Below, in pieces: positions 30,382 to 63,873 of a DNA stretch of 64,000 nt. Below the pieces are notes generated by a model. The model did not search any database. It saw only the letters and a list, made by a program, of their open reading frames with translations, and was not told the DNA's origin. Source of the stretch: Streptomyces sp. KMM 9044 (GTDB taxonomy: Bacteria; Actinomycetota; Actinomycetes; Streptomycetales; Streptomycetaceae); assembly GCF_024701375.2 (NCBI RefSeq), contig NZ_CP113910.1, forward strand, positions 6,572,001 to 6,636,000. The letters run 5' to 3'. The stretch's first letter is position 1. Each line of letters starts with the position of its first letter. The position numbers and the translations under genes are program-made.

Positions 30382-30416
30382 TGGCACGGCCACGGGACCT
30401 GAGAACGGGTGAAACC

Positions 30417-39400: not shown

Positions 39401-41273
39401 CCTCCTGCTGGTGTCACGGCGCGGTCCCGCCGCCGACGGCGCCGACACCCTCGTCGCCGAACTCACCGCACTGGGCGCCCAGGTGTCCCTGGAGACCTGC
39501 GACGTCGCCGAACGCGCCGACGTGGAGCGCCTGCTGACACGGCTGCCCGCCGACGCACGGCTGACCGGCGTCGTCCACGCGGCCGGGGTCGCCGACGACG
39601 CCGTCCTCACCGCTCTCGACGGCGGCCGCTTCGACACCGTGCTGCGGCCCAAGGCCGACGGGGCCTGGCACCTGCACGACCTCACCGCCCGCCTCGACCC
39701 GGCCGCGTTCGTGCTGTTCTCCTCCGCCGCGGGCACCTTCGGCGCCCCCGGCCAGTCCAACTACGCCGCCGCGAACGCCTTCCTCGACGGTCTCGCCGCG
39801 CTCAGGCACTCCCGCGGCCTGCCGGCCACGTCGGTCGCCTGGGGCCTGTGGGACGACGACAGCGGCATCACCGCCCGCCTGTCCCACGCCGACCGGAGCC
39901 GCCTGGCCCGCGGCGGTCTGCGCCCCCTGGCCACCGAGGACGCGCTAGGCCTCCTCGACGAGGTCCTGTGCGCCACCGAACCGGCGGTGATCGCCGTCGC
40001 CACCGGCTCCGGCCGGGCCGGAGTGCGGGCGCTGCTGAGGCCGGCCGCCCCGGCAGCGGCCCGGCGGACCGCCGCCGGCTCCTCGGGACCGGCGGCCGCC
40101 GTGTCACTCCTCGCCGGCCGCGGCCCCGAGGAGGGCCGAGCCCTGATGCTCGGCATGGTGCGCGACCTCGCCGCCACCGTCCTCGGACACGCCACCGCCG
40201 ACGAGGTGGAGGCCGACCGGCTCTTCACCGAGCAGGGCTTCGACTCCCTCACCGTCGTCGAACTGCGCAACCACCTCGCCACCGCGACCGGTCTGAAGCT
40301 GGCCCCGACCCTGCTGTTCGACCACGCCACCCCGGAGGCCCTCGCCACCCACCTGCACCGGAGGCTGGGCGAGCAGCCGTCCCAGGACTCGGGCACGGCC
40401 CGGACGGCGATCGCCGGGCCCGAGGCACGGGCCGAGGACACCCTCGGCGGCCTGTTCAAGAAGGCATGCCTGGACGGCCGCGTCGACGACGGCTTCACGC
40501 TGCTCCACGCCGCTGCGGGACTGCGGCCCACCTTCACCTCACCGGAGGAGCTCGACACCCTCCCCGGCGCGATCCGTCTCGCCACCGGTGACGCCACCGC
40601 GCCGCTGGTCTGCTTCAGCTCCTACGTCGCCCTCGCCGGAGTCCACCAGTACGCCCGGTTCGCCTCCGGCTTCCGCGGCCGACGCGACGTGTGGGCGCTG
40701 CCCACGCAGGGCTTCGGCACCGGGGAGGCGCTGCCCGTCACCTTCGACGCCGTCGCCGACCTGCACGCGGACGTCGTGGACCGCACCGTCGGCGACGCCC
40801 CGGCGGTCCTGCTCGGCTCGTCCTCCGGCGGCATCCTCGCCCTCTCCGCCGCCCGGCGGATGCAGGAGCGCGGGTCCGCGCCGGCCGCCGTGGTCCTGCT
40901 GGACACCTACATGCCGCGCGCGGACTCCCCGTTCCTGCGCTTCTCCCAGCAGATGCTGGGCGGCATGTTCGAGCGGGAGTCGATGTTCGCCCACATGGAC
41001 TCCGACCGGCTCACCGCGATGAGCTGGTACGTGGCGATGATCGGTGAGTGGGAGCCGGGCCCCCTGGACTGCCCCGTCCTGCTGGTGCGTTCCAGTGAAC
41101 CCCCGGTGCCCGCGGAACCCGGAACGTCGATGCGGCCCGAGGAGTGGCAGACGTCCTGGGACCGGGCCCAGACCGTCCTGGACGTCCCCGGCAACCACTT
41201 CACCATGATGGAGACCTACGCCCGCTCCACCGCCGAAGCCACCGACGACTGGCTCACCGACCGCGGCGTCTGA
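30417..41273 (+). CDS. Modular type I polyketide synthase, two modules with terminal thioesterase
   Basis: A 3618-residue PKS that ends the assembly line. I chose ATG at 30417 rather than ATG at 30381: the latter overlaps the preceding stop codon, whereas 30417 starts the standard docking helix (SDEDKLLGYLKKV) and has GGTGA a few bases upstream. Domains: docking (30417-30515), KS-AT-KR-ACP (m7), KS-AT-DH-KR-ACP (m8), TE (about 40560-41260). The first AT is methylmalonyl-type (YASH) but has an unusual active-site loop, GQSLG. The second has HAFH and should use malonyl. The TE would hydrolyse or, more likely, lactonise the finished chain. Bases 35740-36520 have the T/G-ending codon style and closely match part of the first PKS gene. 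The gene converges with the ligase/ACP gene, and a strong hairpin lies 16 bp after its stop codon. Confidence 0.97.
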   Translation: MSDEDKLLGYLKKVTADLHQTRQRLAAAEAQQHESIAIVALGCRFPGGVSDPDDLWRLLDEGADAMTEWPRDRGWDTDALYDPTPGTPGRSYTRVGGFVDRVADFDAGFFGISPREAVGTDPQQRLLLEICWEALERAGIDPLALRGSRTGVFAGTNLQDYTTLLSLSDNAGDDGVGNSASVLSGRVSYTLGLEGPAVSVDTACSSSLVTLHLAAQALRAGECDLALAGGVTVMSTPTVFLEFSRQRGLAADGRCRAFADSADGTAWGEGAGVLVVERLSDARRHGHPVLAVLRGSAVNQDGASNGLTAPNGPSQERVIWQALNSAKLAPADVDAVEAHGTGTRLGDPIEAQALLATYGQDRPADRPLLLGSVKSNIGHTQAAAGVAGVIKMILALRAGRLPATLHVDRPSRHVDWSAGHVELLTEARPWPAPGDRPRRAGVSSFGVSGTNAHVILEQAPPADPDDTATSADDAPRARAFTVSGRTAAALRDQAARLDARLRTAPDGAVRPADLAWSLAATRPALEHRAVVVAADHGTLLRGLTALADGAPDPAVVRGVADTDGDPVFLFPGHGPQWEGMAVELHSFDARFRAFFDEAAAAVEEYTDFRVLDVLRRAPGAPPLDRLDVVQPALFVTCVALARLWMACGVRPAAVAGQSLGEVAAAHIAGALTLQDAARVIGVRSRELMALAGRGGMVAVPLPLAEVERLIAPYDGRICVGGVTGPRSVTVAGDTESLAALLARLTGDGIQARRVPMDYASHCPQVEEVRDALLAGFAPLRPRPAEIPFHSTVTGARIEDTTTLDASYWYDNARRTVRLEPAVRALADAGHRVFVEVGPHPVVTSAVGDILDDLDITDGVVLGTLRRSDGGTQRFLTSVAALAVRGGSPDFGAVHDEPARRADLPVYAFQRRRYWPAFTPAESVGPADAIADTPFWQAVDSGDVTTLATALALDEGTVATLASALAGYRRRSEERGTADRWRYRITWHPIEDRTVPALTGRWVLAVPGGQEDGTEATAVQAALTRAGATCVPVVVDATAGRAALATALGGAVAGARGLVSLLARDGTPHPAHPLLPTGFAVTVALVQALDDLDARLPVWFLTRGAVAVSGADPAPDPAQALVQGFGRVVALEQADLWGGLVDLPERLDARTADRVVAVLAGTDHEDQVAVRATGALGRRLERAAVGGLPGRRRWDPRGTVLVTGGTGALGAHVARWLARTGAAHLLLVSRSGPDAEGAAALLADLTAAGAHADIVACDVADPTDLAALLASIPEERPLTAVFHTAAVLDDGVIGSLTPERLAEVLRVKVGGALNLDAATAHLDLSAFVLFSSSSGVFGSPGHGNYAPGNAYLDALAEDRRLRGLPATAVAWSGWADGGMASGAVGERLQRHGVRLMDPAVAVTALQAALDQDDTALVVTDIDWEVFGAELDKGRPRRLYAGLPEIELLRARRPAPAPAPSSSDGGNELLTRLAALTDSDRRHALLELVRAHIAYILNHPSPDDVEPARAFRELGFDSLTAVELRNTLGEATGMRLPSTLVYDYPTPAALAEHLGGLLAPATPAASGGAVAVARGERAEDPVVIVGMACRFPGDADTPERFWRLLADGTDAMGPFPQDRDWDLDALYDPEPGKAGRTSTLVGGFLDGFADFDPGVFTISPREALAMDPQQRLLLEMAWETFERAGIDPRALRGSRTGVFAGTNYQDYTSRPIDPGDEAGAHLGTGTSASVLSGRLSYTFGLEGPAVTVDTACSSSLVALHLAAQSLRSGECDMALAGGVTVMSTPGLFVDFSRQRGLAADGRCKAFADAADGTGFSEGGGLLLVERLSDARRLGHPVLAVVRGSAVNQDGASNGLSAPNGPAQQRVIRAALVDAGVSASEVDVVEAHGTGTTLGDPIEAQALLATYGRERDAERPLWLGSVKSNVGHTQAGAGVAGVMKMVLAMRHGVLPATLHVDAPSSHVDWSSGGVELLTRAREWPESVERPRRAGVSSFGISGTNAHVVLESVPGEPVTGEPVAEESRGVPGGGPVPWVVSARSRDALRAQAAQLLDHVTGHPGVPLADTALALATTRTPFSHRAVLVGADRDALAAQLRALADGAPLPGTVTGTARTGGRTAFLFTGQGAQRPGMGRELHAAHPVFAETFDAVCERVPGLREVVLGDDAERLNRTEHAQPALFAFEVALYRLLESWGLRPDFVAGHSVGEIAAAHIAGVFSLDDACALVAARGRLMQALPAGGAMASVSATEEEVLPLLAGREHELGIAALNGPAATVVSGTETAVAEICDHFATSARRVTRLRVSHAFHSPLMDPVLDDFRTVATAISYAEPRVPVVSALTGEPATPGLLTDPEYWVRHVREPVRFHDCVTRLHGLGARRFLETGPDGPLSTLAETVLAETAPDTADEALFVAAVLRDKPETDRLLMAVGALFAHGAEPDWTALLPGARTVPLPTYAFQRQRFWLPTVAPAGDPAGAGLRGADHPFLGAEVTRAGSDDLLFTGRLSLRSHPWLADHTVLGQAILPATGYLDLAVHVGDRADCGHLSELTLLSPLVVPAEGTVDLQVTVDAADETGQRAFAVWSAPAGNDGDWQRHAQGTLAPRPPSAPADDLAAWPPPGAEQVPGQDPYVAFAAAGFAYGPSFQGLGTVWERGDEVYAEAALPEPYREDAARYALHPALLDAAVQALLVRRPGLRGDDEATAPMLPFAWTGLTLHATGATTLRVRLTPAGHDHGYRVLVTDTAGQPVATADAITLRTVSAAPGTGAGRPELLRLDWQETLAAPEPPLPQTTRWIVFGTGDDRVAAALDAAGVHLETYADLEALGKAVDTGMTMPDVVLVAPAPYRTGGPGMPETVRGHLTRAHDLMCGWLADDRFTDSRLVFVTRSAVNAGPDTGTPDVAGAALWGMVRSGQAEHPGRFQLVDLPGDAEDADGTALFAAVARTRPHSAVRDGRVLHPDATPAATGAGTPDLAAGTVLVTGATGTLGRSVARHLVTRHGVRSLLLVSRRGPAADGADTLVAELTALGAQVSLETCDVAERADVERLLTRLPADARLTGVVHAAGVADDAVLTALDGGRFDTVLRPKADGAWHLHDLTARLDPAAFVLFSSAAGTFGAPGQSNYAAANAFLDGLAALRHSRGLPATSVAWGLWDDDSGITARLSHADRSRLARGGLRPLATEDALGLLDEVLCATEPAVIAVATGSGRAGVRALLRPAAPAAARRTAAGSSGPAAAVSLLAGRGPEEGRALMLGMVRDLAATVLGHATADEVEADRLFTEQGFDSLTVVELRNHLATATGLKLAPTLLFDHATPEALATHLHRRLGEQPSQDSGTARTAIAGPEARAEDTLGGLFKKACLDGRVDDGFTLLHAAAGLRPTFTSPEELDTLPGAIRLATGDATAPLVCFSSYVALAGVHQYARFASGFRGRRDVWALPTQGFGTGEALPVTFDAVADLHADVVDRTVGDAPAVLLGSSSGGILALSAARRMQERGSAPAAVVLLDTYMPRADSPFLRFSQQMLGGMFERESMFAHMDSDRLTAMSWYVAMIGEWEPGPLDCPVLLVRSSEPPVPAEPGTSMRPEEWQTSWDRAQTVLDVPGNHFTMMETYARSTAEATDDWLTDRGV
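30516..35085 (+). other. PKS module m7: KS-AT(methylmalonyl-type, atypical loop)-KR-ACP
   Basis: KS spans about 30516-31800 (Cys at 31026). AT begins near 32115. Its N-terminal motif is GHGPQW (32130-32147) instead of GQGAQW, and its nucleophile loop is GQSLG (32382-32396, Ser at 32388) instead of GHSxG. YASH at 32688-32699 still predicts methylmalonyl or a related substituted malonyl unit. KR has GGTGALG at 34023, LDD at 34275-34283 and Tyr at 34446. The ACP Ser is at 34962. Expected product: beta-hydroxy with an alpha branch. Confidence 0.85.
35406..36565 (+). repeat. KS block in m8, partner of 13942-15086
   Basis: Second copy, including the KS-AT linker and start of the AT region. It contains an extra 15-bp tandem unit at 36433-36462. 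Confidence 0.88.
36433..36462 (+). repeat. 15-bp tandem duplication in the KS-AT linker of m8
   Basis: CCGGAGAGCCGGTG plus one base (A, then G) occurs twice in a row; the m4 copy has it once. It adds five residues to the linker. Confidence 0.9.
36891..37107 (+). repeat. 217-bp AT segment in m8, partner of 15415-15631
   Basis: Second copy of the identical AT segment in the TE-containing gene. Confidence 0.88.
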
Positions 41274-41500: not shown

Positions 41501-44500
41501 TCAGTCGGCGAGCAGTTCGTTCCTCAGGCGGCGGGCCAGCTCCTCCGGTGTCGAGAAGTCGAAGATCACCGACGTCGGCAGGGAGAGCCCGGTCGTGGAC
41601 TCCAGCGCGTTGCGCGCGGTCAACGCGGTCAGCGAGTCGAACCCGAGGTCGCGGATCCGTCCCGTGTCCGGGACCTGCCCGGCCGAGGCGAGTCCGAGGG
41701 CCGTCGCGAAGTGTCCGCGCACCAGGCGCAGCAGGGTCTCCTGCTGCTCGGTGCCGGTGAGGGCCGCCAGCCGGTGGCGCAGCCCGCCCGGATCGGTGAC
41801 CGTGTCGCGCGCCGGACGCAGGCCGACGCCACCCGCCAGGCCGCGCAGCAGCGCGGCAGTGGCGCCGAGCGGCCCCGCGCCCCGCGGCGCGGACAGGTCG
41901 GGGCGGCCGGCGGTGAGCGCGGCCCGTCCGGTGGCGACGGCCGAGGCGAACAGGTCCGCCGCCTCGTCCGAGGCACCGGCGGGTCCGCGCACCGACACGG
42001 CCGCCACGCCGGCCCGCCGCAGGGCGCGGGCCCCCACGTCGAACACCGCGGCCACGGCCGAGTCGACCAGCCCCGCCGAGGCGGGTGCGGGTGTCGCGAG
42101 CACGACGGAGGCGACGCCCCGCCCGGCCGCCGACCGGACCAGCTCCAGCGCCGGGCCGACCACGGGACGCAGCGCGGCGTCCACCTCGGCCCGTGTCCCG
42201 GTCGTCGTTCCGTCGGTGGCCACGGCCGCGGTGAACAGCACCGTGCGGGGGGCGCCGTCGAACAGGGCCCGCACCGCACCGGCGGGGTCCACCGGGTCCC
42301 AGCGCACCAGCTCCGCCGTGCCCGCGGACGCCGGCAGTCGGTCGGCGGCGTTCTTGGCGAACGGGCCCGTCAGCAGCGGTCCGTGTGTCCCCGGTCCGGC
42401 CCCGTGCCCGGTCCGTGCCAGGAACGCCTCGGCCGGACCGTGTCTGTCGCTCCCGGCGAACAGCGCGGTCCGCCCGGGGGAAGACACCTCCGGGGAACTC
42501 ACCGGGACACGGGCCGCGCGCGGGGCCCGGACCTCCCCGCCACGGAGCATCAGCCGTGGTTCGCCGCAGGTCACGGCGGACTCCACGCGCTGCCAGGAAG
42601 GCCCCACGGCGTCCGTCTCGACCAGCACGAAACGGCCCGGCGCCCGGTCCTGCGCGGCTCCGACCAGACCCCACACGGCTGCCGCGCCCACGTCCGGCGA
42701 ACTGTCGTCGCCGGTGGCGACCGCGCCCCGGGTGACGACGACCAGCAGGCTTCGCGCGAGCCGGGGATCGGTGAGGTGCCGTACCCATTGCAGGGCCTCG
42801 AAGACCGCCGCGCGCACCGCGTCGGCCGGGTCCGTGTCCCGCGGTCTCGGGGGACCGGCGGAGACGAGCAGCACGTCCGGGACGGGAGCGCCCTCCTCGA
42901 CCGCCCGTATCAGCGACGGCAGGTCGGGCGGGGCCTCGCAGTGACGCCCCGCCGACAACAGGCCCGCACGGACACCGAGCGGATCGGGGCCGACGACCGC
43001 CCACCGGTCGGAGCGGTCCGCCCGCAGCGGCGGGTCGCACAGGGCCCAGGTCTCCTCGAACAGGCCGTCCTGTTGGGCCGCCGAAGCGGCCCGCACGGCA
43101 CGCTTCTCCCACGGCGCGCATGTCACCGACCGAGCGGTCAGTACCGGATCCCCGGCACCGTCGGCCGCGGTCACGTCCCAGGTGCCGTCCGCCGACTGTC
43201 GCAGACCCACTCGCAGCACGGACGCGCCCACGGCGTACAGCGACACATCGCGCCAGCGCACCGCCACCACGTCCGCGGCGTCCTCCCGTGTGTCCTCCCC
43301 TGTGCCCTGCGCCGTCTGCCGCACGGCGCAGGCCAGTGCCGTGTCCAGCAGCGCCGGGTGCGGGGCGAACCGGGCCTGTGCCGTCGTCCGGTCCGGCAGC
43401 GCCACCTCGACGAAGACCTCGTCGCCGCGCCGCCACACCCCACGCGGCGTCCGCGCGGTGTCCGGTCGGCCGGCACCGGTGCCCCCGCCCGTCCGACGGG
43501 CGCCCTGCGGCGGCCACACCGTCCAACCCGTGTCCGGCTCCGGCCCGGCGACGGGTGCCACCGACGCCACCGCGTGCCGGGTCCACGGGCGTCGTGCCGC
43601 GTCGCACGCGTCCCGGCGCCCGTGCACCGTCACTTCTCGTACGCCGTGGGAGTCGGGGGCACCGACCCCCACCCTCAGCTGCACGCCCTCGTCCCGCGGC
43701 AGCACCAGCGGCTCGTCCGCGGTCAGCTCCAGCACCCGGGCGCAGCCCGCCCGGCCCGCCGCGTGCAGCACCAGGTCCAGCAGGACGGCCCCGGCGACCA
43801 CCGTCGTGCCTTCGACGCGCCGCAGGAGCGAGGGATCGGACCCGGTCACGGTGATCCGTCCGGTGAACGCCAGCTCGTCCCGTCCGGGCAGTTCGACCGT
43901 GGCGGACAGCAGGGGGTGCCCGGCGTCCTGAAGCCCCATATCGCCGGCGCCGCGGTACCGGGCCGGTTCCCCGGCCGTCCGTCGGGACCCGCGCCACAAC
44001 AACCGGGCCGGCAGATCGGCCAGCAGTCCGCGGGCGATCTCCCCGGCCGGGTCGCGGGGCACCTCGGCGATCTCGTGGATCTCGTCCGGCAGCTTGTACG
44101 GCGGCAACCGCCGCCGGCAGGCGGCCAGCACCGTCTCCACATCGATTCCGCCCGACTCCGGCACCGGCAGCACGTACGCCACCGGTATCTCGCCGAGAGC
44201 CTCGTCGGGGGCGCCCGCCACGGCCGCGTCCGCGACCCCGGGCGCCTGGACCAGCGCCTGTTCGACCTCGCGGGGGTGAAGGTGCTCGCCTCCGCGGGTG
44301 ATGAGTTCCGTGAGCCGGCCCGTGATCGTCAGGTGCCCGTCCGCGTCCTGCCGGCCGAGGTCACCCGTGCGGTACCAGCCCTCAGCCAGCACGGCCGCGG
44401 TCTCCTCCAACCGCCCGTGGTAGCCCAGCATCAGCCCCGGACCGGACACCCGGATCTCGCCCTCGGCGCCCCGCTCCACCTCCTCGCCGGTGCGCGCGTC

Positions 44501-45583
44501 CGTCAGCCGAAGTGTCAGCCCGGGCAGTGGCACCCCGCACGAGCCCGGCACGTGCGGGCCCTGCGGCAGGTTCGTGGTGATCGCACCGCCGGTCTCCGCC
44601 GAGCCGTAACCGTCCAGCAACGCGACGCCGAAGACGGACCGGAACTCCTCGTGCAGGGGCTGCGGGCACGACGACCCCGCGACCAGGCACACCCGCGGCC
44701 GTGGCGGTCGCGCCGCCCCGGACCGCGCCAGCTCGACCATCCGGCGGTACATCGCCGGCGCGCCCACGAGGAAGGTGGCGTCCTCCTCGCGTACGCGGTG
44801 CAGCACCTCCTCGGCGTCCGGGCCGTCGGTGAGGCAGGCCGTGGCGCCGACCGCGACGACGCCGAGCACGCACACGTTGTGCGCCACGACGTGGGACAGC
44901 GGCATCGGGCACACCAGCCGGTCCTGCGGCGACATGCCCAGCAGGGGAGCGCCGCAGGAGGCCGTCGTCCACAGCGACGTCCGCTGGGTGGCCACGACTC
45001 CCTTGGGATGTACGGTCGTTCCGGACGTGTACAGCAACCAGGCGGGCTCGTCGAGCCCCAGGTCGTCCCGGGGCGGGTCGCGCAGCGACCACGTCGACGC
45101 CAGTTCCTCCCAGCGCGGCAGCTCGGCGTCGACGGCCGCAGCGAACCCCGGTTCGGAGTCGTCCCCGACCAGGATCACCGTGATCCCCGGTCGGTCCGCG
45201 AGCACCCGGCGCACCTGTGGCAGCCGTACCGCATCCGTGATCACCACCTGGGCCGCGCAGTCGTCCAGCACCCACGCGAGTCCCGGGCCGGTCGTCAGCG
45301 GGTCCAGCGGTACACCGACGGCACCGGCCCGGGTGACGGCGAGACAGCTCTCAACCGCTTCCACCCGGTTCGGCAGGCAGATCACCGCCGACGCGCCCCG
45401 CGCGAGCCCGAGGCCCACCAGATGGCCGGCGACCCGTGCGGTACGCCGTTCCAGCACGGCCCAGGTCACCGAGCGGCGGGCGTCCTTGAACGCGGTCCGC
45501 TCCGGCTGCCGGGCGGCGTGTTCGGCGAGCAGTTCGTGCAGCGGGCGGATCAGCTCCGCCCGGAGCGCCGCGTCCGCGGTCAC
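41501..45583 (-). CDS. PKS starter-loading protein: AMP-forming acyl ligase, degenerate DH and KR, ACP
   Basis: 1360 residues from GTG at 45583 (AGGGGA five bases upstream), 9 bp after the permease stop. Residues 1-530 are an ANL-superfamily acyl ligase: P-loop YTSGTT (185-190), GYGSAETGG, GWYRTGDLG and ITGRLTELITRGGE. Residues about 555-830 resemble a DH, but the catalytic His is Arg588 and the motif Pro is Ala597, and the second motif has lost its His, so it is dead. Residues about 850-1240 resemble a KR without a glycine-rich NADPH loop or catalytic Tyr, also dead. The ACP Ser is residue 1317 (GFDSL), and the protein ends soon after with no docking tail. Architecture and context suggest it activates a carboxylic acid and loads it on its own ACP as starter. 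Two ligase motifs deviate: Val191 in the P-loop and Glu515 at the A10 Lys position. The substrate is inferred only from the neighbouring mqn genes. Confidence 0.85.
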   Translation of the reverse strand: MTADAALRAELIRPLHELLAEHAARQPERTAFKDARRSVTWAVLERRTARVAGHLVGLGLARGASAVICLPNRVEAVESCLAVTRAGAVGVPLDPLTTGPGLAWVLDDCAAQVVITDAVRLPQVRRVLADRPGITVILVGDDSEPGFAAAVDAELPRWEELASTWSLRDPPRDDLGLDEPAWLLYTSGTTVHPKGVVATQRTSLWTTASCGAPLLGMSPQDRLVCPMPLSHVVAHNVCVLGVVAVGATACLTDGPDAEEVLHRVREEDATFLVGAPAMYRRMVELARSGAARPPRPRVCLVAGSSCPQPLHEEFRSVFGVALLDGYGSAETGGAITTNLPQGPHVPGSCGVPLPGLTLRLTDARTGEEVERGAEGEIRVSGPGLMLGYHGRLEETAAVLAEGWYRTGDLGRQDADGHLTITGRLTELITRGGEHLHPREVEQALVQAPGVADAAVAGAPDEALGEIPVAYVLPVPESGGIDVETVLAACRRRLPPYKLPDEIHEIAEVPRDPAGEIARGLLADLPARLLWRGSRRTAGEPARYRGAGDMGLQDAGHPLLSATVELPGRDELAFTGRITVTGSDPSLLRRVEGTTVVAGAVLLDLVLHAAGRAGCARVLELTADEPLVLPRDEGVQLRVGVGAPDSHGVREVTVHGRRDACDAARRPWTRHAVASVAPVAGPEPDTGWTVWPPQGARRTGGGTGAGRPDTARTPRGVWRRGDEVFVEVALPDRTTAQARFAPHPALLDTALACAVRQTAQGTGEDTREDAADVVAVRWRDVSLYAVGASVLRVGLRQSADGTWDVTAADGAGDPVLTARSVTCAPWEKRAVRAASAAQQDGLFEETWALCDPPLRADRSDRWAVVGPDPLGVRAGLLSAGRHCEAPPDLPSLIRAVEEGAPVPDVLLVSAGPPRPRDTDPADAVRAAVFEALQWVRHLTDPRLARSLLVVVTRGAVATGDDSSPDVGAAAVWGLVGAAQDRAPGRFVLVETDAVGPSWQRVESAVTCGEPRLMLRGGEVRAPRAARVPVSSPEVSSPGRTALFAGSDRHGPAEAFLARTGHGAGPGTHGPLLTGPFAKNAADRLPASAGTAELVRWDPVDPAGAVRALFDGAPRTVLFTAAVATDGTTTGTRAEVDAALRPVVGPALELVRSAAGRGVASVVLATPAPASAGLVDSAVAAVFDVGARALRRAGVAAVSVRGPAGASDEAADLFASAVATGRAALTAGRPDLSAPRGAGPLGATAALLRGLAGGVGLRPARDTVTDPGGLRHRLAALTGTEQQETLLRLVRGHFATALGLASAGQVPDTGRIRDLGFDSLTALTARNALESTTGLSLPTSVIFDFSTPEELARRLRNELLAD

Positions 45584-45592
45584 GAGATCCCC

Positions 45593-46444
45593 TCACGCAC
45601 CCATCGCGCGGTAGCGTCGCACGGCCAGCGCGCGTCCCACCACCGCGATCAGCACGGACCAGGCCAACGACACCAGCACCGGATGCTGCGTCGGCCAGGC
45701 GCCCGTGGCCGTGAGTCCCGGGTTTCCGAACAGCTCGCGTGCCGCTTGCACCGTCGCGCTCAGCGGGTTCCACTCCGCGGCCCAGCGCAGCACCGTCGGG
45801 AGCGTCGAGGGCGCCACGAACGCGTTCGACAGGAACGTCATCGGGAACAGCCACAGGAAGTTGCCGCTGGCCGCGGCCTCCGGGGCGCGCACGGTCAGCC
45901 CGATGACGACGCCCACCCACGACAGCGCGTATCCCATGAGCAGGAGCAGGGCGAAGCCCGCGGCGGCCCGCAGCACCCCGTGGTGGATGCGCCAGCCGAC
46001 CAGCAGCGCGCAGAGGATCATCACGGCGACCATGACGGTGTTCTGCACGAGGTCCGCGAGGGTGCGGCCGGTGAGCAGCGCGCCGCGCGCCATGGGCAGG
46101 GAGCGGAACCGGTCCACCATGCCGCTCTGTACGTCGTTGGCCAGGCTGATACTGCTGTTGCTGGCCGTGGAGAAGGCGATGGTCTGTGCGAAGAAGCCCG
46201 GCATCATGTACTCGCGGTAGGCCGCCGGACCGTCCGCTCCGGGCAGGGCGAAGGACCCCGCGAAGATGTACGCGAAGAGCAGCACGAACACGATGGGCTG
46301 CACCAGGCTGAGGACGAGCACCTCGGGTATCCGCAGCGTCCGGACCACGTTGCGCCGCGTCACGACCAGGACGTCACGCACGGACTTGGCGGCCGTGCCC
46401 GGCTTCAGCTCGGGTACGGCCGACGCCGTTGCCGACACTGTCAT
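45593..46444 (-). CDS. ABC-2 type transporter permease (daunorubicin-resistance DrrB-like)
   Basis: 283 residues. The ATG at 46444 overlaps the ATPase stop codon by one base (TGATG), a translational-coupling arrangement. After a polar N-terminus there are about six hydrophobic segments, including VLVLSLVQPIVFVLLFAYIF, a pair in the centre (VMVAVMILCALLVGW and a long LLLLMGYALSWVGVVIGL region) and a C-terminal LAWSVLIAVVG. This is the fold of ABC-2 permeases that pair with DrrA-like ATPases. It is expected in the cytoplasmic membrane, exporting the polyketide and giving self-resistance. The specific substrate cannot be read from the sequence. The starter-loading gene follows 9 bp downstream. 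Confidence 0.9.
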   Translation of the reverse strand: MTVSATASAVPELKPGTAAKSVRDVLVVTRRNVVRTLRIPEVLVLSLVQPIVFVLLFAYIFAGSFALPGADGPAAYREYMMPGFFAQTIAFSTASNSSISLANDVQSGMVDRFRSLPMARGALLTGRTLADLVQNTVMVAVMILCALLVGWRIHHGVLRAAAGFALLLLMGYALSWVGVVIGLTVRAPEAAASGNFLWLFPMTFLSNAFVAPSTLPTVLRWAAEWNPLSATVQAARELFGNPGLTATGAWPTQHPVLVSLAWSVLIAVVGRALAVRRYRAMGA

Positions 46445-47433
46445 CACTCCTTCTCGCTCGGCGCGCCGACGACGAGCGCCGCGCGCCTGGTGTCCCGACG
46501 GGTGTCCTCGGTGAGGGCGAGGAAGACCTCGTCCAGCGTGGGACGGCGCAGCGCGATGTCGGTGATCTCGATCCCGTCGCCGTCCAGCGCGGCGACGGCC
46601 TCCGTCAGCAGTCGTACGCCGCCGTCGACGGGCACGGAGACCGTGCTCCGAGGCCGGTCCACGTCCGGGGCACGGATGCCGAACCGGGCCAGCATGGCCG
46701 CGGCGGTGTCGAGCTGTCCGAGTCGGGAGACCGTCACCTCGATGCGCTGTCCGCCCGCCTGCGCCTTCAGCTCGCGCGGTGTGCCCCGGGCCACGATCCG
46801 CCCGTGGTCGACGACCGCGATGTCCCTGGCCAGCCGGTCGGCCTCCTCCAGGTACTGGGTGGTCAGCAGCAGTGTGGTGCCCTGCCCGACGAGGTCCTCG
46901 ATGGCGTCCCACAGCATCAGTCGGCTGGTCGGGTCCAGCCCGACCGACGGTTCGTCGAGGAACATCACCGACGGTCGTACGACGAGGGCGCCGGCCAGGT
47001 CGAGACGCCGCCGCATCCCGCCCGAGTACGTGCTCGACACCCGGTCGGCCGCGGCGGTCAGGTCGAACTGGTCCAGCAGTTCGTCGGTCCGCAGGCGGGC
47101 CGTCCGGGACCGCAGACCGTACAGTTCGCCGATCATGCGGAGGTTCTCCCGGCCCGTCAGCCGGTCGTCCACGGCCGCGAACTGGCCCGAGAGCCCGATC
47201 GACAGCCGGACCCGGTCCGGCTCGCGCACCACGTCGTGGCCGGCCACGGTGGCCGTGCCCGAGTCCGGGCGCAGCAGGGTGGTGAGCAGCCGTACCGTGG
47301 TGGTCTTGCCCGCTCCGTTGGGGCCGAGCAGTCCCAGCACGCCGCCTTCCGGCACATCCAGGTCTACTCCGTCAACGGCCCGGATCTCACCGAAGGTCTT
47401 CACCAGACCCGTGGCGTGAATGGCGCCCGCCAT
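46444..47433 (-). CDS. ABC transporter ATP-binding protein (DrrA-like)
   Basis: 329 residues from ATG at 47433, preceded by GGAGAG at normal spacing; a longer in-frame extension to 47505 lacks a better ribosome site. Walker A is GPNGAGKT (residues 37-44), the signature is YSGGM (136-140), and Walker B is VMFLDEP (about 156-162). The switch region reads TTQYLEEAD, with Gln where most ABC ATPases have His, as is typical of the daunorubicin-resistance subfamily. It would power the adjacent permease. It is 107 bp downstream of mqnC, with a strong hairpin in between, so it may be transcribed partly from its own start. Confidence 0.93.
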   Translation of the reverse strand: MAGAIHATGLVKTFGEIRAVDGVDLDVPEGGVLGLLGPNGAGKTTTVRLLTTLLRPDSGTATVAGHDVVREPDRVRLSIGLSGQFAAVDDRLTGRENLRMIGELYGLRSRTARLRTDELLDQFDLTAAADRVSSTYSGGMRRRLDLAGALVVRPSVMFLDEPSVGLDPTSRLMLWDAIEDLVGQGTTLLLTTQYLEEADRLARDIAVVDHGRIVARGTPRELKAQAGGQRIEVTVSRLGQLDTAAAMLARFGIRAPDVDRPRSTVSVPVDGGVRLLTEAVAALDGDGIEITDIALRRPTLDEVFLALTEDTRRDTRRAALVVGAPSEKE

Positions 47434-47490
47434 GGGCTCTCTCCGTCCTTGTGCAGGGATGGGGGTGGCAGTGCGTGCGGGGCTGGGCGC

Positions 47491-47530
47491 GTGTGTCCGG
47501 GGCACCGGCCCGCGCGAGCCCCGGACACAC
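47491..47530 (-). terminator. Hairpin after mqnC
   Basis: A perfect 13-bp stem (47491-47503 with 47518-47530) around a 14-base loop lies 10 bp beyond the mqnC stop codon, in transcription direction before the ABC ATPase gene. There is no T-run. It probably terminates or attenuates mqn transcripts and may protect their 3' ends. Confidence 0.7.
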
Positions 47531-47540
47531 GGGCCGGGGC

Positions 47541-48746
47541 TCAGGTCGCGGCGATCAGCTTCAGCTCGGGGTGCGCGGTGCCGCCCGCGATCGCCGTGGA
47601 CGAGATGTGCGAGACGATGCGCTCGTCGACCGGGTCGTTCGCCGGGTCGTCGTGCACCAGCAGGTGCTCGTACGTCGTGGCACGCTGCGCCGGAACCCGG
47701 TCCGCCCCCCGGATCAGGGTGATCAGTTCGCCAAGGTTGGAGCGGTGCTTGGCGCCGGCGGAGGAGACGACGTTCTCCTCCAGCATGATCGAGCCGAGGT
47801 CGTCCGCGCCGTAGTGCAGGGAGAGCTGGCCGATCTCCTTGCCGGTGGTCAGCCAGGAGCCCTGGATGTGGGCGATGTTGTCCATGAAGAGCCGCGCGAT
47901 GGCGATCATGCGCAGGTACTCGAAGAGCGTGGCCTGCGTACGGCCCTTCAGGTGGTTGTTCTCGGGCTGGTAGGTGTACGGGATGAAGGCGCGGAAGCCG
48001 CCGGTGCGGTCCTGGACGTCACGGATCATCCGCAGGTGCTCGATGCGCTCGGCGTTGGTCTCGCCGGTGCCCATGAGCATCGTGGACGTGGACTCCACGC
48101 CCAGCCCGTGCGCGATCTCCATGATCTCCAGCCAGCGCTCACCGGACTCCTTGAGCGGGGCGATGGCCTTGCGGGGGCGCGCGGGGAGCAGCTCGGCGCC
48201 GGCGCCGGCGAAGGAGTCGAGACCGGCCGAGTGGATCCGGGTGATCGCCTCCTCCACGCCCACCTTGGAGATCCTGGCCATGTGCTCGACCTCGGACGCG
48301 CCCAGGGAGTGGATGACCAGCTGCGGGAAGGCCTTCTTGATGGCCGCGAAGTGGGTCTCGTAGTACTCCACCCCGTAGTCCGGGTGGTGCCCGCCCTGGA
48401 ACATGATCTGGGTGCCGCCCAGCTCGACGGTCTCCGCGCAGCGGCGCAGGATGTCGTCGAGGTCGCGGGTCCAGCCCTTGTCCTTGTCCTTCGGCGGGGC
48501 GTAGAACGCGCAGAACTTGCACGCCGTGACGCACACGTTCGTGTAGTTGATGTTCCGCTCGATGATGTACGTCGCGATGTGCTCGGTCCCGGCGTACCTA
48601 CGGCGGCGTACGGCGTCGGCGGCGGCGCCGAGCGCGTGCAGGGGTGCGTCGCGGTAGAGGTCGAGCGCCTCCTCGGGGGTGATCCGCCCACCCTCGGCGG
48701 CACGGTCGAGGACGGGCTGGAGCGGGGACTTCGGAGGTCGGGACAT
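47541..48746 (-). CDS. mqnC: Cyclic dehypoxanthine futalosine synthase
   Basis: 401 residues from ATG at 48746. MqnC is a radical SAM enzyme that cyclises dehypoxanthine futalosine (DHFL) to cyclic DHFL in the futalosine route to menaquinone. The [4Fe-4S]/SAM motif is CVTACKFC, with Cys72, Cys76 and Cys79, followed by AFYAPPKDKDKGW, characteristic of MqnC. The sequence is full length with no visible damage. It starts 32 bp after mqnA and is followed by a hairpin. In known Streptomyces these genes serve respiration and are not in PKS clusters. Its position here, between an mqnA copy and an exporter plus starter-loading gene, suggests a dedicated copy for a naphthoate building block. The annotation of the enzyme is firm; the role in secondary metabolism is inference. 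Confidence 0.95.
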   Translation of the reverse strand: MSRPPKSPLQPVLDRAAEGGRITPEEALDLYRDAPLHALGAAADAVRRRRYAGTEHIATYIIERNINYTNVCVTACKFCAFYAPPKDKDKGWTRDLDDILRRCAETVELGGTQIMFQGGHHPDYGVEYYETHFAAIKKAFPQLVIHSLGASEVEHMARISKVGVEEAITRIHSAGLDSFAGAGAELLPARPRKAIAPLKESGERWLEIMEIAHGLGVESTSTMLMGTGETNAERIEHLRMIRDVQDRTGGFRAFIPYTYQPENNHLKGRTQATLFEYLRMIAIARLFMDNIAHIQGSWLTTGKEIGQLSLHYGADDLGSIMLEENVVSSAGAKHRSNLGELITLIRGADRVPAQRATTYEHLLVHDDPANDPVDERIVSHISSTAIAGGTAHPELKLIAAT

Positions 48747-48778
48747 GGTGGCCGGGCCTTTCGGTGACGGGGTACGGA

Positions 48779-49711
<933 letters not shown>

Positions 49712-50476
49712 TCAGGCCCGGCGGGCCGTCGCGGCGAAGTGCTCGTGGAGCACGGCGAGCACCTCGGCGGGACGCTCCGAGAGGAAGAAGTGTCCGCCGG
49801 AGAAGACCCGCAGGTCCGACCCGGCCTCGGTGTGCTCGCTCCAGGCACCGGCCTCCTCCAGCGACGTGCGCGGGTCGGCGTCGCCGGTGAGGACGGTCAC
49901 CGGGCAGCGCACCACCGCACCGGGAGTGCAGCGGTAGGTCTCCACGGCCCGGTAGTCGCTGCGGATGGCGGGCAGCACCATGCGCAGCAGTTCCTCGTCC
50001 TGGAGGACCTGGGCGTCGGTGCCGGACAGCCTGCGCAGCTCGGCGATCACCCCGTCGTCGTCGAGGGTGTGCACGTGCTCGTCGCGGGTGCGGGACGGGG
50101 CGCGGCGCCCGGAGGCGAACAGCTGGACGGGGCCCCGCCCGAGGCGCTCCAGGCGGCGCGCCACCTCGAAGGCCACCAGCGCGCCCATGCTGTGCCCGAA
50201 GAACGTCAGCGGACGGTCGTCGGCCCAGCCCGTCAAGGCCGAGGCGACCTGGTCGGCGAGGTCGGCGACCGAGGCGGGACCCGGTTCATGCCGTCGGTCC
50301 TGACGGCCGGGGTACTGGATGGCGGCGACATCGACACCGGGGCTGAGCGCGGTGGCGACCGGCACGTAGAAGCTGGCCGAGCCACCCGCGTGCGGGAAGC
50401 ACACCAGCCGATCGGCGGCGTCGGGAGAGGGCCGGAACCTGCGGATCCACAGGTCGTCGGCGGTGGGGGAACTCAT
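49712..50476 (-). CDS. Type II thioesterase
   Basis: 254 residues from ATG at 50476. It is an alpha/beta hydrolase of the stand-alone (type II) thioesterase family found in PKS and NRPS clusters. The triad is Ser96 in GHSMG, an Asp near 199-201 (TGDADP) and His229 in GGHFFL; the N-terminal RLVCFPHAGGSASFY is diagnostic. Its usual job is to hydrolyse aberrant or prematurely decarboxylated acyl groups from ACPs so that modules are not blocked. Its placement among mqn genes ties those genes to the polyketide pathway, because a thioesterase of this kind has no role in menaquinone synthesis. Confidence 0.95.
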   Translation of the reverse strand: MSSPTADDLWIRRFRPSPDAADRLVCFPHAGGSASFYVPVATALSPGVDVAAIQYPGRQDRRHEPGPASVADLADQVASALTGWADDRPLTFFGHSMGALVAFEVARRLERLGRGPVQLFASGRRAPSRTRDEHVHTLDDDGVIAELRRLSGTDAQVLQDEELLRMVLPAIRSDYRAVETYRCTPGAVVRCPVTVLTGDADPRTSLEEAGAWSEHTEAGSDLRVFSGGHFFLSERPAEVLAVLHEHFAATARRA

Positions 50477-50621
50477 GGGACGTGCGTGTCCTTCCCAGGG
50501 GGCGAGGTGCTGTGACCCGGCCGCAGGCCGGACGGGGGCGGCCGGGAGAGCGCGGAGCGGAGGGGGACGTCACCGGGGCGACGAGCCGATCGCCACGGTG
50601 ACCTGTCCGGGAGGGCCGGCG

Positions 50622-50921
50622 TCAGTCGTCGGCCACGGGCCCGTACACCTCGACCCCGTCGGAGACACGGCGCACGTGAATGCACTCGCCGGGGCACTCC
50701 TTGACCGAGTCGACCACGTCGGCGAGCACCTCCACGGGGATCAGGGCCGTCGCGCCCGGCGCCAGGAGCAGCTCGTCCTCGTCGTCCTTGACGTAGGCGA
50801 GCCCGTCGGTGTCCAGCTCGAACACCTCGGGCGCGTACTGGGCGCAGATTCCGTCACCGGTACACAGGCCCTGGTCGATCCAGACTTCCAGGTCCTCGTC
50901 GTTCGTCGTCTGCGTGGACAT
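50622..50921 (-). CDS. Small ferredoxin with CxxDxxC cluster motif
   Basis: 99 residues from ATG at 50921 (AGGCAGG upstream); a GTG two codons earlier is possible. It resembles actinomycete P450-type single-cluster ferredoxins: CTGDGIC (Cys20, Asp23, Cys26), APEVFELDTDGLAYV, and a C-terminal CPGEC (Cys76, Cys80). The middle ligand position is Asp, where 3Fe-4S actinomycete ferredoxins usually have Ala, Gly or His and 4Fe-4S proteins have Cys. It could pass electrons to the neighbouring radical SAM enzymes MqnC and MqnE, or to a P450 outside the window; no P450 or reductase is visible here. A 163-bp gap with two hairpins separates it from mqnE, and a 145-bp gap with a small stem (50569-50575 with 50596-50602) separates it from the thioesterase. 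Confidence 0.88.
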   Translation of the reverse strand: MSTQTTNDEDLEVWIDQGLCTGDGICAQYAPEVFELDTDGLAYVKDDEDELLLAPGATALIPVEVLADVVDSVKECPGECIHVRRVSDGVEVYGPVADD

Positions 50922-50953
50922 AAACACCTGCCTGGCGGGTCGTCATGATGCGG

Positions 50954-50998
50954 ACACGGTGCGCGCACCACGGTTGAACGGCGGCGCGCGCACCGTGT
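50954..50998 (-). terminator. Hairpin upstream of the ferredoxin gene
   Basis: A perfect 13-bp stem pairs 50954-50966 with 50986-50998 around a 19-base loop. It lies 32 bp before the ferredoxin start and is the second of two hairpins in the 163-bp gap after mqnE. It could be a terminator or an attenuator, or an operator in DNA form. Confidence 0.5.
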
Positions 50999-51010
50999 AC
51001 ACGAGGGGAG

Positions 51011-51054
51011 TCGTGCACGTCGTGCACGAGGGGAGTCGTGCACGACGTGCACGA
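51011..51054 (-). terminator. Strong hairpin after mqnE built from four CGTGCACG palindromes
   Basis: Bases 51011-51029 and 51036-51054 are exact reverse complements (19-bp arms, 6-base loop), 30 bp beyond the mqnE stop codon. Each arm holds two copies of the self-complementary octamer CGTGCACG, at 51012, 51021, 51037 and 51046. The same stretch can be read as an 18-bp direct repeat with a 25-bp period (51002-51019 and 51027-51044). Terminator is the simplest reading; a regulator-binding array is the alternative. Confidence 0.65.
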
Positions 51055-51084
51055 AAGGGTTCCCGGCCTCGGGGCCTGCCGGGG

Positions 51085-52248
51085 TCAGACGCGCATCGGC
51101 TGCGGAGACTCCCGGCGCGCAGGGTCGGGGCGGTCGTACTCCCGGATGATCTCGTACCGGGTGTTCCGCTCCACCGGGCGGAAGCCGGCGTCGCGGATGA
51201 GGTCCAACAGGTCCTCGCGGGTCAGCTTGTTCGGCGTGCCGTAGTTGTCCGCGTCGTGGGTGATCTTGTACTCGACGACCGAGCCGTCCATGTCGTCCGC
51301 GCCGTGCTGAAGGGCCAGCTGGGCGGTCTGGACACCGTGCATGACCCAGAACACCTTGACGTGCGGGACGTTGTCGAAGAGCAGCCGGGAGACGGCGAAC
51401 GTCTTCAGGGCCTCGGCGCCGGTCGCCATCTGCGTCCGTGCCTGCAGCCGGTTGCGGATCTTGCCGTCCTTCATGTCCACGAAGTCGTGCTGGTAACGCA
51501 GCGGGATGAAGACCTGGAAGCCGCCCGTCTCGTCCTGCAGCTCACGCAGCCGCAGCACGTGGTCCACCCGGTGCCGGCGTTCCTCGATGTGGCCGTAGAG
51601 CATGGTGCACGGGGTCTTGAGACCCTTCTCGTGCGCCAGGCGGTGGATACGGGACCAGTCCTCCCAGTGGGTGCGGTGGTCCACGATGTGCTGCCGGACC
51701 TCCCAGTCGAAGATCTCGGCGCCACCGCCGGTGAGCGACTCCAGACCGGCGTCGATCAGTTCGTCCAGGATCTCCGAGGCGGTCAGTCCGGAGATCGTCT
51801 CGAAGTGGTGGATCTCCGTCGCCGTGAACGCCTTCAGGCCGACGTTCGGCAGCGCCTTCTTCAGCTCCCGCAGCGAACGCGGGTAGTACCGCCACGGCAG
51901 ATTCGGGTGCAGACCGTTGACGATGTGCAGTTCGGAGAGGTGCTCGTTCTCCATCGCCTTGGCCAGCCGGACGGCCTCCTCGATGCGCATCGTGTACGCG
52001 TCCTGCTCGCCCGGCTTGCGCTGGAACGAGCAGTACGCGCAGGACGCGGTGCACACGTTCGTCATGTTGAGGTGACGGTTGACGTTGAAGTGGACCACGT
52101 CACCGTTCTTGCGGGTGCGCACCTCGTGTGCCAGACCGCCCAGCCATGCCAGGTCGTCCGACTCGTACAATGCGATGCCGTCCTCGCGGGACAGCCGCTC
52201 ACCGGAGAAGACCTTCTCCTCCAGCTCGCGCTTGAGCCCAGCGTCCAT
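51085..52248 (-). CDS. mqnE: Aminofutalosine synthase
   Basis: 387 residues from ATG at 52248, with a near-perfect GAGGAGG nine bases upstream. MqnE is a radical SAM enzyme that joins 3-[(1-carboxyvinyl)oxy]benzoate with the adenosine part of SAM to give aminofutalosine. The cluster motif is CTASCAYC (Cys66, Cys70, Cys73) followed by SFQRKPG. Other family stretches are LHIVNGLHPNLPW, GGGAEIFDWEVR and HGADDMDGSVVE. The gene is intact. It is the first gene of the leftward group and diverges from mqnD, so the two probably share regulation through the 376-bp intergenic region. Two hairpins directly downstream may make it a largely separate transcript. Confidence 0.95.
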   Translation of the reverse strand: MDAGLKRELEEKVFSGERLSREDGIALYESDDLAWLGGLAHEVRTRKNGDVVHFNVNRHLNMTNVCTASCAYCSFQRKPGEQDAYTMRIEEAVRLAKAMENEHLSELHIVNGLHPNLPWRYYPRSLRELKKALPNVGLKAFTATEIHHFETISGLTASEILDELIDAGLESLTGGGAEIFDWEVRQHIVDHRTHWEDWSRIHRLAHEKGLKTPCTMLYGHIEERRHRVDHVLRLRELQDETGGFQVFIPLRYQHDFVDMKDGKIRNRLQARTQMATGAEALKTFAVSRLLFDNVPHVKVFWVMHGVQTAQLALQHGADDMDGSVVEYKITHDADNYGTPNKLTREDLLDLIRDAGFRPVERNTRYEIIREYDRPDPARRESPQPMRV

Positions 52249-52624
52249 GGCCGGGAACCTCCTCGTTCAGTGCCTGGCGGCACACGTGGTGAGTGTGAGC
52301 ACGCGATGCGGCCCGACTCGTCGACACGCCCCGGGACGTATCAGCTTGGGAAGAACAACGGACCGCCCGTTCCGCCCGGGCGGAACGGAACGGAGCCGCA
52401 CCACGCGAACGGCTTCCGCTGAAGCGGCCGGCCACAACAGACCCGGGGGAACCGGCCAACGATCCGGGACCCACGGGCCCTGGCCGGGAACGGCGGGCAC
52501 CGACGCCGCGTCGGTGGGGCCTGCCCATCCTCGCGGAGGGCGGTCTGGGGAAAACCCCACATCCGCAACGGGTTTGCTGAGGGCTTCCGCCGCCGCCCGC
52601 CGACGAAGAAGGTAGCGCCCGCCC
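52249..52624 (+). promoter_or_regulatory. Divergent promoter region between mqnE and mqnD
   Basis: This 376-bp gap contains no convincing gene. It must hold the start signals for the leftward mqnE group and the rightward mqnD-PKS group. I see no clear -35/-10 pair, which is usual for Streptomyces. Visible structures are a perfect 22-bp palindrome (52367-52388) and a small TGGGG-AAAA-CCCCA hairpin (52546-52559). The ribosome site for mqnD (GAAGAAGG, about 52605-52612) lies at the right end. Confidence 0.6.
52367..52388. promoter_or_regulatory. Perfect 22-bp palindrome, candidate operator
   Basis: Two 11-base arms, CCGTTCCGCCC and its exact reverse complement, abut with no spacer about 120 bp upstream of the mqnE start codon and 236 bp upstream of mqnD. 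Length and symmetry suit a dimeric TetR- or MarR-type repressor site. No such regulator gene is in the window. Confidence 0.45.
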
Positions 52625-53485
52625 ATGACGACACCACTGACCCTCGCGCACTCGCCGTGCCCCAACGACACGTTCGTCTTCCACGCCTGGACCGAGGGAC
52701 TGCTTCCCGGCGCCCCGGACGTGCGGCTCACCTTCGCCGACATCGACGTCACCAACGGCCTCGCCCGACGCGGCGAACTCGACGTCCTCAAAGTCTCCTA
52801 CGGCGTGCTGCCGCACATCCTCGACGACTACGTGCTGCTGCCGAGCGGCGGCGCCCTCGGCCACGGCTGCGGCCCGCTCGTCCTGACCGCCCGACCGGGC
52901 GAACCCGCCGCCCTCTCCGGGGCCCGCGTGGCGGTGCCCAGCACCACCTCCACGGCCTACCTGCTGTTCCGGCTGTGGGCGGCCGATGCCGTGCCCGGCG
53001 GCATCGGTGAGACCGTCGTCCTGCCCTTCCACGAGATCATGCCCGCCGTCCGCGACGGCCTCGTGGATGCCGGACTCGTCATCCACGAGGCACGCTTCAC
53101 CTATGACCGCTACGGCCTGCACTGCACGGCCGACATGGGTGACGAGTGGGAGAAGCACACCGGCCTGCCCATCCCTCTCGGTGCCATCGTCGCCCGCCGC
53201 TCCCTCGGCGAACCCCTGCTGAGCCGCCTCACCGACACCGTCCGCGCCTCCACCCGCGCCGCCTGGGACGACCCGGCCGCGTCCCGCGCCTACGTCCTGC
53301 GGCACGCGCAGGAAATGGAACCGGCCGTCGTCGACCAGCACATCGCCCTGTACGTCAACGAGTTCACGGACCGGCTCGGCGAGGAAGGACTACACGCCGT
53401 ACGCACCCTCCTCGACCAGTCGGCCGAGCTCGGCCTGATGCCCCGCGTCCGCGCCGATGCACTGGACCCGACCCGCCGCCTGTGA
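52625..53485 (+). CDS. mqnD: 1,4-dihydroxy-6-naphthoate synthase
   Basis: 286 residues from ATG at 52625 (GAAGAAGG upstream). MqnD converts cyclic DHFL to 1,4-dihydroxy-6-naphthoate, the bicyclic aromatic acid at the end of the pathway's early half. The N-terminal [16 protein letters not shown] is the family signature; [11 protein letters not shown] and [11 protein letters not shown] are also typical. The gene is full length. Unlike the other mqn genes here it reads rightward, 289 bp ahead of a PKS gene on the same strand, so it may be co-transcribed with that gene. This places the last enzyme needed for a naphthoate starter next to a polyketide synthase. An ordinary respiratory role cannot be excluded from this window alone. 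Confidence 0.95.
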
Positions 53486-53774
53486 GCGGCGCTCCGCGGG
53501 AACAGCCTCAAAGGGCCTGCCGCCTCCAAGTCCTGCCACAACGCTAGAAGTTCTCTTAGAGCCCTCGGTCGGCACCCCGAGAACGGGCGGAACCCCTCCC
53601 ATAATCGGCCCCTGGGGCAGACCCGGGACCGGTGAGGCCTGCCCTGCCCCACGAGGGCGTCGGGCGGCGCGCCCGCCCCTCACCGGCCCCCGCGCCCCTC
53701 GGTGCTGGGGCCGACACCATGCCCCGTGCCCCACCGGCGAGCCAGCGTGCCCGCCGCCGAAGGGAGACCGATCC
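53486..53774 (+). other. Non-coding gap between mqnD and PKS gene
   Basis: 289 bp with no credible gene. One stretch (about 53542-53562, containing CTAGAAGTTCTCTTAG) is unusually A/T-rich for this DNA and could be part of a promoter. No strong terminator hairpin is seen after mqnD, so read-through into the PKS gene is possible. The PKS ribosome site AAGGGAG is at 53760-53766. Confidence 0.5.
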
Positions 53775-63805
<10,031 letters not shown>

Positions 63806-63873
63806 GGCACCGTCCCACCCCCTCCTTCTCCCCGGCCGCCCGCGTACGGGCCCACGAACCAGTGGAGCTGAGC

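Follow-up and report, generated by a model that had tools for sequence, protein, structure and literature searches.

A second futalosine pathway within a macrolide gene cluster of Streptomyces sp. KMM 9044, probably dedicated to a naphthoquinone chromophore

The stretch of Streptomyces sp. KMM 9044 DNA analyzed here (64,000 nucleotides, hereafter the window; G000:C1:6572001-6636000 of a 7.43-Mb genome) carries the futalosine pathway genes mqnA, mqnC, mqnD, and mqnE embedded between polyketide synthase (PKS) genes. Judging from sequence comparisons, it is highly probable that these mqn genes belong to a dedicated second futalosine pathway, which would make 1,4-dihydroxy-6-naphthoate for a naphthoquinone chromophore borne by a glycosylated macrolide. 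Open frames and codon composition served to call genes, which were then identified by NCBIfam, Pfam, and PDB sequence searches, and PKS domains were mapped over 222 kb (G000:C1 6493001-6715000). These data directly show which gene families are present, that the five-enzyme set is complete and duplicated, how the PKS domains are ordered, the synteny, and the MqnA and MqnD clades. Positions refer to the window, except those with the prefix G000:C1 or of seven digits, which refer to the genome.

The mqn island occupies the minus strand between 52248 and 41501, in the order mqnE, ferredoxin, type II thioesterase, mqnA, mqnC, DrrA ATPase, DrrB-like permease, and a 1360-amino acid ligase/acyl carrier protein (ACP) protein; mqnD starts on the plus strand at 52625, with PKS genes downstream. 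PKS genes thus flank the island on both sides, and the upstream PKS protein closes with a thioesterase (TE) domain (end at 41273). The initial annotation had placed this set of mqn genes, thioesterase, exporter pair, and acyl-ligase/ACP protein between PKS genes with correct coordinates, but had overlooked the single-cluster ferredoxin (50622..50927, minus strand; PF13459), which occupies the same position in a S. rishiriensis locus (L026) and in two further genomes of the genus (G013 and G110). It had also called the gene identities firm, and they proved to be so. MqnC, the cyclic dehypoxanthinyl futalosine synthase (47541..48746, minus strand; predicted ATG start), and MqnE, the aminofutalosine synthase (51085..52248, minus strand), exceed the NCBI equivalog cut-offs of TIGR03699 (451.6 versus 428.1 bits) and TIGR03700 (541.5 versus 434.55 bits), respectively. 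MqnA, the chorismate dehydratase (48779..49681, minus strand), and MqnD, the 1,4-dihydroxy-6-naphthoate synthase (52625..53485, plus strand), gave no match at E 0.001 in the NCBIfam search; they were identified by PF02621 (243.3 and 247.3 bits, cut-off 26) together with their closest solved relatives, S. coelicolor SCO4506 for MqnA (E 7.5e-125) and T. thermophilus TTHA1568 for MqnD (E 3.6e-61). The ferredoxin is a plausible electron donor for the radical S-adenosylmethionine enzymes MqnE and MqnC.

The initial annotation had proposed a genome search for a second mqn set, taking a lack of other copies as a sign against its proposal; a full second set was found elsewhere. A genome-wide PF02621 search yielded four genes, the MqnC query recovered a second mqnC as well as a second mqnE, and the futalosine hydrolase family has two members in the genome. 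One hydrolase gene, at 4.16 Mb, is the neighbour of the second mqnD. The other, the cluster mqnB, was found by the family search on the plus strand 4.2 kb before the window (G000:C1:6567025-6567753), between a sugar-pathway nucleotidyl-transferase gene and the five-module PKS. The cluster therefore encodes all five enzymes leading from chorismate to 1,4-dihydroxy-6-naphthoate, the same five as in the respiratory futalosine pathway of the S. coelicolor type. As the second copies, presumed respiratory, form a full set at other loci, the cluster copies are not the organism's only respiratory genes, an alternative that the initial annotation had raised.

Cluster and second copies share 68% identity for MqnA, 60% for MqnB (191 of 256 amino acids aligned), 91% for MqnC, 69% for MqnD, and 94% for MqnE. 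In maximum-likelihood trees, the cluster rows form one clade apart from the genome's own second copy both for MqnA (98/89) and for MqnD (100/99), and the MqnA cluster clade joins rows from two further genomes, G128 and G145 (100/99). After removal of identical rows, 24 of 31 rows (MqnA) and 39 of 45 (MqnD) were used, with loci L029-L103 and four loci holding the window's own copies set aside; the label 'primary' in these trees is mostly a default given without a check of context, and the G145 labels L139 and L171 are interchanged. The trees rule out a recent duplication from the genome's own second copies for MqnA and MqnD, the two proteins to which they apply.

Outside the window lies a PKS that could use the product of these enzymes. 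This satellite PKS (G000:C1:6518717-6531571, minus strand), found by domain mapping, has the organization CAL-ACP-[KS-AT-DH-KR-ACP]x2, in which KS is ketosynthase, AT acyltransferase, DH dehydratase, and KR ketoreductase. The adenylation motifs of its ligase domain are intact, as they are in its counterparts in G013, G110, and G128. Both ATs carry GHSQG and YASH; the first DH keeps the HxxxGxxxxP motif, the second does not. The two modules are identical across long KS and AT stretches, so the second probably arose by internal duplication. The end of the satellite PKS gene is overlapped by a gene for a ketosynthase III-type (KSIII) protein (G000:C1:6517693-6518742, minus strand), which in comparison with solved structures scored 203.5 bits with 9z38, 188.2 with 7vyu, 187.4 with ChlB3, 136.7 with DpsC, and 136.5 with CerJ, versus 34.8 bits for the best FabH-type structure. 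CerJ and ChlB3 move acyl groups and do not catalyze condensation. Among solved structures, such acyltransferases are the nearest by sequence to the cluster KSIII, for which a sugar hydroxyl would be the acceptor. In Streptomyces sp. KMM 9044, the satellite PKS and KSIII genes (region G000:C1:6517693-6533160) are separated from the mqn island by about 80 kb and lie beside a transposase gene (PF13701); in G013 and G110 they are directly beside the island.

A system of this kind has been known since 2016 (PMC4763440), so that the capture of a respiratory pathway for polyketide synthesis, which the initial annotation had considered notable, is not new. The gon cluster of Streptomyces caniferus makes PM100117 and PM100118, macrolides with a 36-membered ring whose sugar chain carries a naphthoquinone; the genes cited are gonM1-M4, gonT, gonF2, gonSL, gonS1/S2, and gonP8, with mqnA, C, D, and E homologues in the cluster and mqnB supplied from outside (PMC4763440). 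When gonM4, the mqnD homologue, was deleted, production fell and intermediates devoid of naphthoquinone were obtained, and the product was lost upon deletion of gonMT, gonSL, gonS1, or gonS2 and in a gonP8 mutant (PMC4763440). In a gonE mutant, the naphthoquinone chromophore and a precursor accumulate (PMC5103430). Both clusters have mqnA/C/D/E homologues (here an extra set), a ferredoxin, a thioesterase, an ABC pair, an acyl-ligase/DH/KR/ACP protein (GonSL type, here with eroded motifs), KSIII, a ligase-primed satellite PKS (GonP8 type), a macrolide PKS loaded by a KSQ domain (here with TE), and deoxysugar genes. They further share a five-module protein with a KR-less third module and a methylmalonyl-type fourth AT, and a YASH AT in the penultimate module, which the mapping also places in the penultimate macrolide module here. 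The window cluster differs from gon in having its own mqnB, 18 rather than 20 extension modules, two satellite modules rather than the single one of GonP8, one KSIII and two recognized glycosyltransferases (two and four in gon), and another gene order; no gonMT or gonCM counterpart was recognized in it. The gon description does not include an mqnB within the cluster, a satellite PKS of two modules, a stand-alone ligase with eroded motifs, clades of the cluster genes, or a further type of macrolide cluster with mqn genes, as found in G128 and G145.

A different reading of the duplicated genes is that they encode respiratory enzymes, spare or regulated by stress, or that they confer self-resistance to a product blocking the futalosine pathway. 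A duplicate target beside biosynthetic genes is a known resistance pattern, and the identity of MqnC and MqnE to their other copies (91-94%) implies that the cluster copies could work in respiration. In S. caniferus, moreover, the mqnD outside the cluster partly replaced gonM4 (PMC4763440). Against this, all five steps are duplicated rather than a single target, and the mqn genes travel with a ligase-primed PKS and a KSIII of the acyl-transferring type in the own genome, G013, and G110; also, the product was altered upon gonM4 deletion (PMC4763440). We therefore regard a respiratory or resistance role as very improbable and retain the dedicated chromophore pathway.

The initial annotation had drawn attention to the acyl-ligase in the window, as acyl-ligase loading modules use free aromatic acids. 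This stand-alone GonSL-like protein (41501..45583, minus strand), delineated with NCBIfam, Pfam, and an alignment, comprises an acyl-ligase, a DH-like part, an SpnB-type Rossmann part, and an ACP, the DH-like and Rossmann parts being devoid of catalytic motifs. It has many Streptomyces homologues among the matches listed (120 of 1990). The alignment comprised 29 homologues, namely the window protein and 28 from the best 120 of 1990 matches; P0003, P0007, P0009, P0010, P0012, P0013, P0016, P0018, P0020, P0021, P0029, and P0030, all of similar length, and short rows were set aside. The A10 lysine is required for adenylation. It is kept in 26 of the 29 proteins and replaced by glutamate in the window protein, P0001, and P0002, which also have threonine for the A8 lysine and of which the latter two are the closest relatives of the window ligase among the matches listed. 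The A3 loop of the window protein is altered as well, and A3 changes are also encountered elsewhere, e.g., in P0006, P0011, P0015, and P0025. The stand-alone ligases of G013 and G110 are shorter and retain the A10 lysine but have lost that of A3; among the 32 of 150 genomes listed, the catalytically dead DH/KR part occurs in the own genome only. As the motifs of the window ligase are eroded and those of the satellite ligase are kept, the latter is the likelier naphthoate loader, and the window ligase is possibly retained as a carrier or scaffold.

Nor does the macrolide itself appear to start from an aromatic acid. On the plus strand, 19 KS domains were mapped, one KSQ and 18 extension KS, in addition to the TE. 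The KSQ domain (at G000:C1 6538284) forms a loading module with an AT and an ACP; it carries the motif DSAQSSS, and its AT is of the methylmalonyl type (YASH). This loading module implies that the macrolide is not started from an aromatic acid. The possibility that the large PKS around the mqn genes uses naphthoate as its starter unit was nevertheless weighed, as the acyl-ligase/ACP protein adjoins these genes and aromatic-acid loading by ligases is common in PKS. Besides the KSQ module, the missing A10 lysine of the window ligase argues against it, and so does a KS at the loading position in G013 and G110 with the same low similarity (41-42%), recognized there by similarity and place rather than by active site. 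In gon, the naphthoquinone is borne by the sugar chain (PMC4763440). A naphthoate-started macrolactone is thus scarcely credible. The aromatic starter role put forward by the initial annotation holds insofar as the mqn genes are duplicates and gon links genes of this kind to a macrolide-borne naphthoquinone; it fails for the embedding PKS, which is KSQ-loaded, the ligase-primed PKS being a separate satellite protein.

Domain mapping resolved the macrolide PKS, all on the plus strand, as follows. The five-module gene (1..20166; its open frame starts outside the window at G000:C1:6568092) has a third module without detectable KR and a fourth AT with GHSQG/YGSH. It is followed by two modules at 20221..30381 and by two modules plus the chain-release TE domain at 30381..41273, inside the window. 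Four extension modules come after mqnD: two at 53457..63065, with the first KS match at 53862 and a shift of the domain frame past the end of the second KR match at 62888, and a further two-module stretch of which the window holds only the beginning (63649..64000), its last ACP match ending at G000:C1:6645103.

From these genes a pathway may be proposed, in which the substrates, the sequence of steps, the size of the ring, the site of attachment, and export are predictions. MqnA, MqnE, MqnB, MqnC, and MqnD would convert chorismate to 1,4-dihydroxy-6-naphthoate, perhaps with the ferredoxin serving MqnE and MqnC. The ligase of the satellite PKS would adenylate this acid or a derivative and load it onto the satellite ACP, after which two methylmalonyl-type modules would extend it, both with a KR but only the first with its DH motif kept, to a predicted arm aryl-CH=C(CH3)-CH(OH)-CH(CH3)-CO. 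The CerJ/ChlB3-like KSIII would then hand this arm to a sugar hydroxyl. In parallel, the KSQ-loaded PKS with its 18 extension KS would make a macrolactone, predicted to be 32-membered; two glycosyltransferases, two P450s, and a PF02458 acyltransferase would tailor it, and DrrAB would export it. Pfam matches in the cluster include an NDP-hexose 2,3-dehydratase, a nucleotidyl transferase, a 4,6-dehydratase type, a DegT type, two glycosyltransferase-family proteins, and one P450 of its own; the second P450 has Pfam support through its G013 counterpart. No third glycosyltransferase was recognized in the cluster region or by similarity in G013 and G110. The PF02458-family protein (G000:C1:6665368-6666732, at the cluster edge; Pfam) is a candidate for a macrolide ester group. 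In the window, the exporter genes are that for the DrrA ATPase (46444..47433, minus strand; predicted ATG start; TIGR01188 above cut-off) and that for the DrrB-like ABC-2 permease (45593..46444, minus strand; predicted start; PF01061 above and TIGR01247 below cut-off). The type II thioesterase lies at 49712..50476 (minus strand; PF00975, 199.8 bits).

With 18 extension modules, two glycosyltransferases, and a PF02458 acyltransferase, a langkolide-type product is expected. Langkolide, from Streptomyces sp. Acta 3062, is a 32-membered macrolactone with a disaccharide bearing a 1,4-naphthoquinone and an acetyl ester, as reported in PMC10669366, the ring size being that in a title cited there. It fits the module count, the glycosyltransferases, and the acyltransferase of the window cluster, identity being a prediction; no langkolide gene cluster was found in the literature searched. 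In another source, axenomycins and langkolide are named as the naphthoquinone macrolides then known (PMC4698589). Notonesomycin (nbc) is a 32-membered macrolactone from 18 PKS modules that carries an aromatic unit as well as two deoxysugars at C-37 (PMC7081687). These 18 modules resemble the KSQ loading plus 18 extension KS found here, where ring closure is predicted, but the aromatic unit of notonesomycin is 4-amino-3-hydroxybenzoate from other genes, in contrast to the futalosine product of the window cluster.

G013 and G110 share the cluster, mqnB included, with its gene order conserved across about 140 kb and with 21 KS matches each, as in the own region. The order there is NDP-hexose 2,3-dehydratase gene, loading KS, mqnB (78%), PKS, TE, satellite PKS, and KSIII (90-91%), then the shorter ligase, ABC pair, mqnC, mqnA, type II thioesterase, ferredoxin, mqnE, mqnD, and four PKS modules, and finally LuxR-type regulators, P450s, sugar genes, glycosyltransferases, and the acyltransferase. 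The exceptions are the shorter stand-alone ligase of the relatives and the displaced satellite PKS and KSIII of the window genome. Among 80 named loci retrieved with the window ligase, five contain mqn genes: S. rishiriensis L026 has every island gene, Streptantibioticus silvisoli L028 all except mqnD within the locus, and L024, L025, and L027 (S. marokkonensis, S. malachitofuscus, and S. sporangiiformans) the ABC pair and a partial mqnC where their contigs end. Among 150 genomes of the genus, the own included, PF02621 genes counted by eye number two in 134, one in 4, three in 7, and four in 5. As a marker of the cluster, an extra PF02621 copy proved partly right: in the remaining set of 11 genomes that have three or four, G013 and G110 hold a cluster of the window type, and in G003, G047, G049, and G079 the third match is a split gene or a weak match.

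G128 and G145 carry a different mqn-bearing macrolide PKS cluster. In G128 (L167, L168, L183-L186), mqnA-E are distributed across about 155 kb (of which 45 kb lie outside the sequence retrieved), together with a ferredoxin, a number of glycosyltransferase-like genes, and a ligase-primed PKS that precedes a TE. In G145 (L170, L189, L190), mqnA, C, and E and a ferredoxin are on one contig and mqnD on another, with similar genes and PKS. Lone MqnA-like genes, 49% and 45% identical, occur in G136 (L172:10084-10857) and G077 (L173:10410-11240) near ligase and KS matches; such clusters may employ the product of MqnA by itself as a building block. G069 (L174:7035-10734) has an extra mqnA, mqnE, ferredoxin, and mqnC, with no mqnD within the 20 kb fetched.

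Several observations weigh against a functional chromophore pathway as proposed here. No counterpart of gonMT was found in searches with PF08241 and PF13649 over 6493001-6715000. The sole methyltransferase-family match in that region (6680469-6681416; PF13489) lies 13.7 kb past the last conserved cluster gene, has no match in any of 41 stretches taken from relatives, G013 and G110 included, and is a weak candidate for a quinone methyltransferase; a further gene of such a family lies at 6731781. The window ligase looks inactive by its motifs, yet its counterpart gonSL is essential in S. caniferus (PMC4763440). The gon comparison was made through the published text and table. The cluster is uncommon, as 134 of the 150 genomes carry just two PF02621 genes. 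Finally, domain matches switch frame in three macrolide PKS genes (window 62888-63508; G000:C1:6546027-6548392; 6644052-6645103), which may reflect either decay of the cluster or an assembly error at these places.

These frame breaks, the eroded acyl-ligase motifs, and the removal of the satellite PKS by about 80 kb to a site beside a transposase gene would all fit a system as proposed but decayed and non-functional in this strain. On the other hand, the frames of the mqn genes, of the satellite PKS and KSIII, and of the genes for sugars and export are open, and the ligase change is common to P0001 and P0002. In the four modules after mqnD, domain match positions indicate one frame break at a different place in G013 and none in G110, which makes sequencing error plausible for the breaks in the window genome. 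Decay in this strain is considered unlikely.

There is about an even chance that the five futalosine genes and the ferredoxin constitute a self-contained chromophore cassette, old enough to have clades of its own, coupled to a ligase-primed satellite PKS, and present on at least two macrolide cluster types (that of the window and that of G128/G145) independently of the respiratory set, with the degenerate ligase persisting as carrier or scaffold. The cluster offers a candidate for the genes of 32-membered naphthoquinone macrolides of the langkolide kind, together with a concrete prediction of the quinone arm. It also shows an entire pathway of primary metabolism duplicated within an antibiotic locus and maintained there as a lineage of its own, providing a branch point between respiration and chromophore that may be tested gene by gene.

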